A stretch of 32,977 nt of DNA from Mesoaciditogaceae bacterium (lineage in GTDB: Bacteria; Thermotogota; Thermotogae; Mesoaciditogales; Mesoaciditogaceae): assembly GCA_015486145.1 (NCBI GenBank), contig WFSH01000115.1, positions 1-32,977 of the forward strand, given 5' to 3'. Shown here in pieces: positions 28,257 through 32,583 of this stretch. A program made the translations under genes and the position numbers. Under the pieces are notes generated by a model. It did no database searches and was not told the DNA's origin. It worked only from the letters and a program-made list of their open reading frames with translations. How positions within the stretch are numbered: position 1 is the first letter of the stretch; the number at the start of each line of letters is the position of its first letter.

Positions 28257-28988
28257 TCAGGAAAGACGCGCCATGAATTTCAAAGCTTTTTCTGTTTTTG
28301 GAGATATAAAAAATTCCTCCGGTCCCGATTCTTCCATTACCACACCATCATCCATAAAAACGATCCTATCCGCGGCGTAGCGTGCAAAGTTCATTTCGTG
28401 TGTTACAACGATCATCGTTGTCCCGCTATCCGCGAGTTCTTTCATGACACTTAGAACTTCCGCGGTCATTTCGGGATCGAGTGCCGACGTTGGCTCGTCA
28501 AACAATATCAAATCTGGTCTCATGGCCATGGCACGTGCTATAGCAACCCTTTGTTTTTGGCCTCCTGATAATTCCCCTGGGTAGCTGTTAAGTTTGTCTG
28601 AAAGCCCAACTCTGTTAAGCATCTCAATAGCTTGATCTCTCGCTTCTATTTTCCCTACCTTTTTGACTTTCACAAGTGGATAAACCACGTTTTTGAGGGC
28701 TTTCATATGTGGAAAAAGATTATAACTTTGGGATACAAAAGATATTTTGGCTCTTGCACGTCTCAGTACATTGGGATCTTTTTTCATCTTTTCACCATCA
28801 AAGATGATTTCTCCACCGTCTGGAAATTCAAGAAAGTTGATGGTTCTTAGAAACGTTGACTTTCCCGTTCCTGACGGCCCCATTATAACGACAACTTCTC
28901 CTTTGTTAACAACTAACGACACATCACGAAGGACAACAGTTTCCCCAAATACTTTTTTTACATGCTTTGCTTCCAACAAATTTGTCAT
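28257..28988 (-). CDS. Polar amino-acid ABC transporter ATP-binding protein (HisP/GlnQ type)
   Basis: GPSGTGKSTFLRTINFLE, LSGGQKQRVAIARAMAMRPDLILFDEPTSALDPEM. Confidence 0.95.
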   Translation of the reverse strand: MTNLLEAKHVKKVFGETVVLRDVSLVVNKGEVVVIMGPSGTGKSTFLRTINFLEFPDGGEIIFDGEKMKKDPNVLRRARAKISFVSQSYNLFPHMKALKNVVYPLVKVKKVGKIEARDQAIEMLNRVGLSDKLNSYPGELSGGQKQRVAIARAMAMRPDLILFDEPTSALDPEMTAEVLSVMKELADSGTTMIVVTHEMNFARYAADRIVFMDDGVVMEESGPEEFFISPKTEKALKFMARLS

Positions 28989-29725
28989 GGTATTGCCAGT
29001 CTCCTTTCAATGAGGTTGCTCAGAAAACTTAGCAAATAGGTCAAGGTAAAGTACATGAGCGCAACAGTTATATAGCTTTCGAAAGAAGCGAGAGCCATTG
29101 TGGCAACTTGAGTTCCGCGTTGAGTCAATTCACTTATCGCTATAACAGAAGCCAGAGAGCTGTCTTTCACAAGACTTATAAATTGTCCAGTTAGAGACGG
29201 AAGTGAATTTCTGAAAGCTTGAGGTAAAATCACATCGAAAAACCTTTCCTTAGGTGAAAGGCCAAGAGCTTCGGCTGTCTCAAACTGCTCTTTCGGTATC
29301 GATTGAATGCCAGCTCTTACTATTTCTATAACATAAGCTCCTTCGAAAGTGGACAGAGCTAAAACTGCTGCCCAAAACCTTGGTATGTTGACCAGTGTGC
29401 CAACTCCGTAATAAACTAAAAGGATGACAACAAGCAATGGAATGTTTCTAAAAAACACCACGTATAATCCCGACAAATCTCTCAGAGTTTCACTCTTTGA
29501 CACTTTCATTATTCCCCCAAAAACTCCAATTGCAAAAGAGATCACTATGCTTACAACAGAGATCTTCAACGTCATGAGAAGACCAAGGAAGTACAGCTTC
29601 AGGTAATGGGTTGGCACCACATTCCAATGAAATGGATATTGAAGAGACATAAAATAGTACATGATTCCGAAGGTCGCGGCGATAAGCGCCGCGATCGAAA
29701 TCTTTTTGAGAATTCTATACCTCAT
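28985..29725 (-). CDS. Polar amino-acid ABC transporter permease (HisM/GlnP type)
   Basis: EAYxxxG-type loop EQFETAEALGLSPKERFFDVILPQAFRNSLPSLTGQFISLVKDSSLASVI. Confidence 0.94.
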   Translation of the reverse strand: MRYRILKKISIAALIAATFGIMYYFMSLQYPFHWNVVPTHYLKLYFLGLLMTLKISVVSIVISFAIGVFGGIMKVSKSETLRDLSGLYVVFFRNIPLLVVILLVYYGVGTLVNIPRFWAAVLALSTFEGAYVIEIVRAGIQSIPKEQFETAEALGLSPKERFFDVILPQAFRNSLPSLTGQFISLVKDSSLASVIAISELTQRGTQVATMALASFESYITVALMYFTLTYLLSFLSNLIERRLAIP

Positions 29726-29734
29726 GAAATCACC

Positions 29735-30517
29735 TCAAGAGTTTGGTTGGTAGTTATTGAACCATTTGTTGTATAGCTTTTGCCATTGTCCGCTTGCTTT
29801 CACATATGTTATGAACGTGTTTATCCAATTGAGAAGATCAAATTCACCTTGTTTTATTGCAATTCCGTAATTCTCGTTGGTTAATTCCTCATTTGTTGTG
29901 GAAAGCTGGGAATATTTACTTACCATGAACCCAACGTATGTAGAATCCCCAACAGCGATGTCAGCTTTTTTCATAGCAACTTGTATAGAGGCTTCGTCCA
30001 TTGACGCAAACTCTAAAATTTTCGCATTTTTGAAGAAAGCCCTCGCGGCATCGTCTCCAGTTGTTCCCATTTGAACAGCCACGATTAAATTTTTCTTTTC
30101 CAGCAGTTCTTTTAAAGTCGGTGGAGTTTTATAGACCTTATTGTTGTAAAGGATCTTTTGACCCACCGTGAAATAAGGTATTGAAAAGTTGACCATAATT
30201 GCACGCTTTGGAGTTATCGTCATCGCAGAGATTATCATGTCAAACTTTCCGGAGACTAAAGAAGGAAGGATCCCAGACCACCGTGTTGGAACAATTCTAA
30301 GCTTAACACCAAGTTCATTAGCCATGAGAGTAGCCAAATCCACATCAAAGCCAATGTATTTACCGCTGCTATTGATCCCTTCAAATGGCATATAGCCTGC
30401 GGCATCCATTCCGACGTTCAAATAACCAGACGAAATGATCCTCTGAAGCGCATCAGCACTCACGATAATTACCATAACGAGAATAAGTAACGAAACTACC
30501 ACAAGAACTCTTTTCAT
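29735..30517 (-). CDS. Polar amino-acid ABC transporter substrate-binding protein
   Basis: Signal peptide; GKYIGFDVDLATLMANELGVKLRIVPTRWSGILPSLVSGKFDMIISAMTITPKRA. RBS AGGAGG upstream of ATG 30517. Confidence 0.94.
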   Translation of the reverse strand: MKRVLVVVSLLILVMVIIVSADALQRIISSGYLNVGMDAAGYMPFEGINSSGKYIGFDVDLATLMANELGVKLRIVPTRWSGILPSLVSGKFDMIISAMTITPKRAIMVNFSIPYFTVGQKILYNNKVYKTPPTLKELLEKKNLIVAVQMGTTGDDAARAFFKNAKILEFASMDEASIQVAMKKADIAVGDSTYVGFMVSKYSQLSTTNEELTNENYGIAIKQGEFDLLNWINTFITYVKASGQWQKLYNKWFNNYQPNS

Positions 30518-30545: not shown

Positions 30546-30578
30546 GAAAAAGGGCCACATCTTTTTTAGGTGTGGCCC
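30546..30578 (-). terminator. Intrinsic terminator upstream of the substrate-binding protein gene (attenuator)
   Basis: - strand GGGCCACA-CCTAAAAAAGA-TGTGGCCC-TTTTTC, 8-bp GC-rich stem plus U-tract, before the start codon at 30517. Confidence 0.9.
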
Positions 30579-30654
30579 GGTGGGTTTGCTTTAACTTAAA
30601 AGCACACGTTCAAGTTTCCGCTCTTCCACCGGGCGGATACTTAACGTGATGCTT
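30575..30654 (-). promoter_or_regulatory. Leader RNA: long hairpin plus antiterminator pairing
   Basis: - strand stem AAGCA-u-CACGUU-AAGU-a-UCCGC / GCGGA-a-ACUU-g-AACGUG-UGCUU (30654-30600). GCCCGGUGG (30634-30626) is perfectly complementary to CCACCGGGC (30583-30575), which overlaps the terminator 5' arm. Confidence 0.75.
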
Positions 30655-30699
30655 CCTGTTCAATTGGTTTAAAATCGGAATAATATATTTATCAATCAT
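30610..30699 (-). CDS. Putative 29-aa leader peptide MIDKYIIPILNQLNRKHHVKYPPGGRAET
   Basis: - strand ATG 30699 to TGA 30610, preceded by agaagggaaaaagt; positioned between promoter and attenuator. Below the ORF-track length threshold. Confidence 0.62.
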   Translation of the reverse strand: MIDKYIIPILNQLNRKHHVKYPPGGRAET

Positions 30700-30732
30700 A
30701 CTTTTTCCCTTCTTATTAAAGAACTTGGATTT

Positions 30733-30762
30733 ATACTATCATTTAAACCTATGTTGTGTCAA
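30733..30762 (-). promoter_or_regulatory. Promoter for the amino-acid ABC operon leader
   Basis: - strand TTGACA-18 nt-TAGTAT, immediately upstream of the leader. Confidence 0.65.
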
Positions 30763-31207: not shown

Positions 31208-32542
31208 TCATCGCTGAGGATCGTACAAAACCTGAACGCCTCTTCCTTGAAGCGTTTGAATATCGTTCAAATCCGTAGATGGAGAGGTTAAATCCAACAA
31301 ATTCCATCTCACATCCAAATGATCTCCGTTGTTAATTCCACTATTTTTCACGAGAGGAGAAATATCATCTATTTGATTGTAAGAAAGATTCAGTCCCTCC
31401 AAGTTATTGAGACCTTCCAAGGGTGAAATGTTACTCACATTGTTGTGCTCTATGGCAAGTGTCTCTAAGTTGGTTAAACTTGCCAGAGGGGAAATATCCG
31501 TTAAGTGATTGCCAAAGATAGCCAATATCTTCAAACTCGTTAAATTCCTCAAAGAGGTTAAATCAGTTGCGGGATTGTCTCCAACGTTTAGATCCCACAA
31601 ATTCACGAGTTTTGATAGCGGTGACAAATCGGTTATCTTGTTTCCATTGATGAGAAGAACTTCTAAATTGGTAAGGCTTGCGATCGGGCTCAAATCATCT
31701 ATGTTGGAATTGTTGAAAATCTGAAGCCACGTTAAATTTGAAAAGTTAGAAAGAAATGTGATATCTGAGTTTGTGAGGCCCATTCCACCCATTCCAAGTT
31801 CTTCAAGCCATGTCCAATTTTTCAAAAACGCCCAATTGCTTTTTGGTATTGGATCGTAATCAAGATATAGTTTCTTTATATTCGTCAAATTCTGAATTGG
31901 GCTTATATCACTGACGTTGTTGGACCAAATATTCAGATCTTGCAGATGAGTTAAGCTTGCCAACATGCTTACATCCGATACGTTATTGTTTATGATTTCA
32001 AGCGATTTTAAATTGACACAATATTGAATCCCTTCGAGGTTGGCTATTTTGCTTGCGGCTCTCGAGGGCCAGTTGTTTGAAATCGTCGCGATGGTTGTCA
32101 GATCGCTTTCGTATATATCACCGGCTGGCTTTCCTATTTGAGCTCTTATTATGGAATTAAGAACTGGATCTGGAAAGATCACGATCGAATTTGTAGGAGT
32201 TGCTTTCGTCGTTGCCGAAGCGGTGTTGCTTGGATCTGACAATCCGAAATCGTTTTTTGCCCTGACTTTGTAGTAATACGTCGTTGACGGTGTTAAAGCT
32301 GTGTCAACGAAATCGTTAAAAGTTGTGGTTGCTATGGAATTGAATGCCGCGCCAACATTCGACTTAGATCTGTAAATGGTGAAATCTCCAGAGCCATTCC
32401 ATGAAAGCTTTATGGAAGAGGCACTTAATGTAATTGCCTTAAGGTTTGTCGGTGCTTGAGGTTTTAAAAGAAAGCATGCAGAAAGGATAAAAGCTATGAT
32501 TAGCACCGTTCCCAACAACAAAATTCTTGTAAGTATCTTCAC
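31208..32542 (-). CDS. LRR (internalin-type) + fibronectin type III lipoprotein
   Basis: Lipobox IIAFILSAC; FN3-like APTNLKAITLSASSIKLSWNGSG...YYYKVRAKNDFGLSDPSN; multiple ~22-aa repeats (LTNLETLAIEHNNVSNISPLEG). GTG 32542 with RBS aaggaggg (ORF opens 32566). Confidence 0.9.
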   Translation of the reverse strand: MKILTRILLLGTVLIIAFILSACFLLKPQAPTNLKAITLSASSIKLSWNGSGDFTIYRSKSNVGAAFNSIATTTFNDFVDTALTPSTTYYYKVRAKNDFGLSDPSNTASATTKATPTNSIVIFPDPVLNSIIRAQIGKPAGDIYESDLTTIATISNNWPSRAASKIANLEGIQYCVNLKSLEIINNNVSDVSMLASLTHLQDLNIWSNNVSDISPIQNLTNIKKLYLDYDPIPKSNWAFLKNWTWLEELGMGGMGLTNSDITFLSNFSNLTWLQIFNNSNIDDLSPIASLTNLEVLLINGNKITDLSPLSKLVNLWDLNVGDNPATDLTSLRNLTSLKILAIFGNHLTDISPLASLTNLETLAIEHNNVSNISPLEGLNNLEGLNLSYNQIDDISPLVKNSGINNGDHLDVRWNLLDLTSPSTDLNDIQTLQGRGVQVLYDPQR

Positions 32543-32583
32543 GGTCTGTCCCTCCTTAAGATACAAAATGTCTTATGTTAATA

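Follow-up and report, generated by a model that had tools for sequence, protein, structure and literature searches.

What controls the amino-acid ABC importer operon on the minus strand of this window, the whole stretch of 32,977 nucleotides analyzed here? The original prediction read the segment ahead of the operon as an attenuator, and every element it named (promoter, ribosome-binding site, ORF, codons, helices, terminator, and the AGGAGG of the first gene) was located on the minus strand, as follows.

30733 to 30762, minus strand: putative sigma-70 promoter TTGACA-18-TAGTAT, from the sequence (TTGACA 30762-30757, 18-nt spacer, TAGTAT 30738-30733)
30704 to 30713, minus strand: weak Shine-Dalgarno-like site agaagggaaa, with an AAGG core
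30610 to 30699, minus strand: leader ORF MIDKYIIPILNQLNRKHHVKYPPGGRAET (ATG at 30699, 29 codons, TGA 30612-30610)
30646 to 30657, minus strand: control codons AGG AAG CAT CAC (R-K-H-H), from folding with a ribosome footprint
30598 to 30656, minus strand: P1 hairpin (5' arm 30656-30633, 3' arm 30621-30598), from the minimum-energy fold and covariation
30626 to 30634, minus strand: 5' strand of antiterminator helix P2, GCCCGGUGG (GCCCGGTGG), within the ORF, at the P-P-G-G codons
30588 to 30603, minus strand: small hairpin GCUUU/AAAGC that can form in the P2 loop, from the sequence
30575 to 30583, minus strand: 3' strand of antiterminator helix P2, CCACCGGGC, overlapping the terminator by GGGC
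30547 to 30578, minus strand: intrinsic terminator P3, GGGCCACA/UGUGGCCC plus U tract, from the sequence and the fold
29735 to 30517, minus strand: amino-acid ABC importer substrate-binding protein, with the ribosome-binding site AGGAGG
28985 to 29725, minus strand: ABC importer permease
28257 to 28988, minus strand: ABC importer ATPase

The codons AGG AAG CAT CAC GTT AAG of the leader ORF occupy 30657-30640, and the P1 hairpin pairs the segment holding the control codons. Downstream of these, GCCCGGTGG (30634-30626) is the perfect complement of CCACCGGGC (30583-30575), giving a 9-bp helix, and the stop codon lies 13 nt beyond the 5' strand of this helix. The terminator is built from the arms GGGCCACA (30578-30571) and TGTGGCCC (30559-30552), followed by a T run at 30551-30547. 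Because GGGC (30578-30575) is common to both, the P2 and terminator pairings are mutually exclusive; this exclusion and the 9/9 complementarity, both claimed originally, can be read directly from the sequence. The small hairpin of the P2 loop is seen in several orthologs too. Upstream of the importer operon, an internalin-like leucine-rich-repeat protein is encoded at 31208-32566 on the minus strand, and a terminator-like hairpin lies behind this gene, at 31179-31156.

With a probability of roughly 0.88, we read the segment as a ribosome-mediated attenuator that controls transcription of the importer operon. The short ORF of the leader would be translated as soon as RNA polymerase has made it. 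Under a shortage of charged His-, Lys- or Arg-tRNA, the ribosome would stall with an R-K-H-H codon in its A site and prevent P1 from forming, leaving GCCCGGUGG free to capture CCACCGGGC before the 3' arm of the terminator is made, and transcription would proceed into the importer genes. When amino acids are plentiful, the ribosome would reach the stop codon and mask the 5' strand of P2 (or P1 would re-form after release); with that strand masked, GGGC would pair in the terminator and transcription would stop. We infer the stalling, starvation as the signal, and His, Lys and Arg as the imported substrates.

The leader RNA folds with -52.8 kcal/mol, compared with -34.0 in shuffles (z -5.08; 0 of 200 shuffles as good), and in its minimum-energy fold the control codons are held in the P1 hairpin and the terminator is formed. 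The effect of translation was modelled by folding the RNA with a ribosome at each codon, covering 12 nt beyond the first A-site base, at 60 °C, with a tool that computes equilibrium folds and ignores pseudoknots. In this footprint model, the antiterminator strand of the window leader is wholly free with the ribosome at N-R-K-H-H, becomes less free at V, and is no longer free at the second K. Of the stall at basic codons originally proposed, the R-K-H-H part, permissive as far as 30646, therefore stands, whereas the second lysine codon, AAG 30642-30640, comes too late in the model. With a ribosome on the stop codon, antiterminator pairing is 0 or nearly 0 in practically all leaders tested; in the model, a control-codon stall frees the antiterminator strand and a stop-codon ribosome blocks it. 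The window model favours the terminator at equilibrium for every ribosome position, and antitermination must therefore be kinetic, which is usual for attenuators of the leader-peptide type. Coexistence of P1 and P2 as a pseudoknot might alter the default state without translation.

When the leader DNA was used as a query against 61 related genomes, it matched upstream of orthologous importers and at further sites in the same genomes. Orthologous importer leaders occur in six genomes of Mesoaciditogaceae, the family of the window, which includes Athalassotoga saccharophila NAS-01, while paralogous leaders precede other genes, identified with NCBIfam and Pfam. All follow a common mobile design, comprising a short ORF, control codons, GCCCGGUGG, its complement, and a terminator sharing GGGC. 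The peptide segments at the control codons are as follows.

Importer leaders: KKHHVKY or RKHHVKY (RKHH in the window)
Aspartokinase (lysC) leader: KKQVKY
DapF (dapF) leader: KKYVK
APC amino-acid permease leader: RKHDK
Oligopeptide-binding protein leader: RRDHR or RRHHR
Xaa-Pro dipeptidase-like amidohydrolase leader (L016, L017, L019, L081, L082): IIFVVLI or VVYIVLI, with Ile/Val/Leu codons

The last of these suggests that the Xaa-Pro dipeptidase-like amidohydrolase may serve branched-chain amino-acid supply from peptides. Across related leaders, the ORF, control codons and exclusive pairings are retained together, and the control codons switch with the downstream gene under a constant pairing logic, which backs the originally proposed attenuator. 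Sequence comparison thus establishes that the parts are present and conserved, that the pairings exclude each other and that codons match genes across the leader family. Two members deviate: P2 of the APC leader L059 has one mismatch, and, set beside the closely related L020, the importer leader L083 (G009:C120) misses part of the antiterminator 3' strand/terminator 5' arm. L083 may be a decayed or misassembled leader.

In the Mesoaciditogaceae alignment, 80% of cells are paired in P1, 99.4% in P2 and 98.8% in the terminator P3, while slid partners give 23-53%. P1 covaries strongly, with double changes in 45 cells where shuffles give 21 (45 reached in 0 of 500). P2 shows the compensatory changes GGUGA/UCACC and CUGG/CCAG, at only two positions, as the helix is so conserved. 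The strong fold, the conserved and covarying P1, the conserved loop sequence, and the presence of lysine genes among the targets are also what one would see if the RNA were a metabolite riboswitch, in which P1 and P2 would form a pseudoknot that recognises lysine or some other amino acid and thereby governs the terminator, the ORF being incidental. We consider this very unlikely: Rfam, searched with the leader at gathering and permissive thresholds, returned chance, unrelated matches only, the would-be aptamer varies by target gene as its amino-acid codons do (IIFVV, RRH, KKQ, NNNNN, HHH), and the reading frame is preserved with its start and stop, indels coming in triplets. Specifically, the ORFs of the importer leaders differ by one 3-nt indel, and other indels before the stop codon also come in threes. 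Changes in the control region are mostly third-position or synonymous, and dN is below dS in 9 of 10 pairs, a small sample in which the bases are also constrained by P1 pairing.

Most Mesoaciditogaceae peptides end in P-(P/A)-G-G-x-A, and the segment before it differs by gene. Pro-Pro-Gly is a known stalling motif, and the constancy of the C-terminal PPGG or SPGG in most of these leaders would fit a leader-peptide attenuator that senses any slowing of translation or a ribosome stalled on Pro-Pro-Gly (e.g., upon EF-P shortage). The shared end is explained otherwise, because this stretch encodes the P2 strand GCCCGGUGG. Moreover, in the model a ribosome halted there blocks P2, leading to termination, and neither general slow translation nor Pro-Pro-Gly stalling needs control codons that fit the function of the gene. 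Such a sensor is therefore highly improbable, and attenuation through control codons is preferred.

To follow this attenuation beyond the family, a covariance model built from 19 leaders was run on 104 Thermotogota genomes and gave matches in 50 of them at E up to 0.1. Those above E of about 0.03 (L105, L107-L113) were mostly not attenuators, L106 excepted. Scanning GTDB genomes for the exact core pattern gave 10 places in Thermotogota and scattered, mostly high-GC matches elsewhere. The same logic of exclusive pairing and codons was found in other Thermotogota families, with the following leaders.

hisZ leaders: two to four His codons (HHH)
argG leaders: Arg-rich (RRR)
argJ leader: RRR
dapD leaders: Lys codons (KK)
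G004:C25:30793-30876, minus strand: asparagine synthetase A leader L099, MCKDINLVASYKFNNNNNPLDIGRWG, with NNNNN
Citrate synthase leaders (L092, L094-L096, L102-L104; family f7): LNNQPEP plus a long exclusive helix
Oligopeptide permease leader: RNRRK

The five Asn codons of L099 lie at the edge of the stall-permissive zone, and the citrate synthase leaders would read glutamate-family or Asn/Gln codons. The hisZ leader L062 (G049:C10:53303-53388) appears as two copies with an N run between them, and this doubling is probably an assembly artefact.

The competing helix, the ORF and the codon matching were thus found again in dozens of leaders. This recurrence, together with a position behind a conserved promoter-like site of its own, speaks against an ordinary terminator of upstream transcription accompanied by a chance ORF and devoid of regulation, an explanation whose sole point is that regulation is so far predicted from sequence, and which we find hardly credible. 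The promoter-like site by itself is not above chance (3 found, 2.0 expected); -35 and -10 boxes like those of the window lie 31-37 nt 5' of the ATG in four of five orthologous leaders, and the Shine-Dalgarno-like site occurs at the same place in orthologs as GAAGGG, GAGGG or AAGGAG.

The attenuator reading further implies that control codons match gene function at the right place, and this was examined in nine gene groups having an expected amino acid, excluding L062 (N runs) and L079. Since leaders in one group share ancestry, values were averaged over groups. When amino-acid labels were permuted over the nine groups, the observed match was reached once in 20000, about the best attainable because only 5040 distinct arrangements exist. 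The fraction of cognate codons is 0.52, 0.94, 0.70 and 0.48 at positions -3 to 0 of the stall-permissive zone and mostly near zero at other positions, with 0.22-0.30 at three. Cognate codons thereby cluster at the downstream edge, beyond which a stalled ribosome no longer keeps the antiterminator strand free. At -4 to 0, a leader carries 2.75 cognate codons, compared with 0.72 under within-leader residue shuffling (0 of 20000). The stall test scored total non-local pairing because the automatic P2 search, which demands an unbroken helix, missed or misjudged several argG leaders. The leaders thus combine an ORF with start, Shine-Dalgarno site and stop, codons cognate to the gene (at the importer of the window, cognate to a predicted substrate), and an exclusive antiterminator and terminator.

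These features are shared with the his, trp, leu, ilv, thr and phe attenuators of Proteobacteria (Kolter and Yanofsky type), namely a leader peptide with control codons, a hairpin over these codons, mutually exclusive antiterminator and terminator, and an intrinsic terminator before the first gene. In contrast to them, the Thermotogota leader has one perfect 9-bp antiterminator helix with its 5' strand inside the ORF, its targets include lysine, arginine, asparagine, citrate synthase and importer genes, and there is no sequence relation: it matched none of the Rfam family models for the His, Leu, Thr and Trp operon leaders, nor RF00168 or RF00230. A 2013 survey listed only His, Leu, Thr and Trp among the Rfam amino-acid attenuators and considered a gamma-proteobacterial origin possible (PMC3766115). 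In Firmicutes, a His-codon leader with terminator and antiterminator precedes hisZ, hisS* or his operons (PMC2965389; PMC9413887); compared by description, its design is the same, in another phylum, while hisZ in Thermotogota is one of a multi-amino-acid set. A report on the Salmonella speF leader describes arginine codons and a response to arginine (PMC6386406), a likeness by description; gene, phylum and leader are different.

Two other regulators of amino-acid genes complete the comparison. The lysine riboswitch (RF00168), which binds its ligand directly and has no ORF, controls lysine genes in other Thermotogota and is present in 57 of the 104 genomes; the family of the window lacks it (0 of 10 genomes), as do the genomes of family f2 among the matches. 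In both of these families, leaders with Lys codons precede lysC, dapF or dapD, a complementarity between families that is suggestive. The T-box (RF00230) also senses uncharged tRNA for amino-acid genes but reads the tRNA directly, and it was found in one of the 104 genomes (L124, G078:C104:262-462), a genome with 6% contamination. We lean towards a phylum-wide attenuation layer in Thermotogota that would read codons for His, Lys, Arg, Asn, branched-chain and glutamate-family amino acids at least, and would replace T-boxes throughout and, in two or more families, the lysine riboswitch. Its leaders would have spread between genes as copies in which nothing but the control codons changed.

Leader-peptide attenuation is usually pictured as belonging to Proteobacteria, with exceptions in Actinobacteria and Firmicutes, the phyla in which the literature searched places such attenuators. 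In the open literature searched, none was described in Thermotogota, and a paper on the genome organisation of T. maritima does not mention attenuation; an earlier mention is possible, most likely in Lopatovskaya et al. 2010. The presence of such leaders before many amino-acid genes of a deep-branching thermophilic phylum bears on the age of the mechanism and the ease of its rewiring, and the Lys, Arg and Asn codon sets are unusual for it.

Where the specificity of a transporter or peptidase is unknown, its control codons can also serve as a label of the substrate, and here they predict a His/Lys/Arg importer. Importers in two other families have binding proteins 46% and 50% identical and a permease 51% identical to that of the window; the leaders of related importers read RHH-S-R in family f7, and in f9 one reads HHHK. 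Across three families, the most informative positions of the importer leaders hold His (HH, HH or RH, HHH), with Lys or Arg varying around it at the critical positions. As His is common to all three, the main signal is most plausibly histidine, and the importer is predicted to respond mainly to histidine, with Lys/Arg added. The best NCBIfam subfamily match of the binding protein, a Lys/Arg/Orn-binding label (TIGR01096), was set aside, as its 158 bits fall below the cut-off of 256. The protein resembles arginine- and lysine-type binding proteins, with the ancestral AncCDT-1, 3k4u and 6svf/4prs, which we take to be Arg- or Lys-binding proteins, as best matches. Judged by its sequence, the operon likely encodes a basic amino-acid importer.
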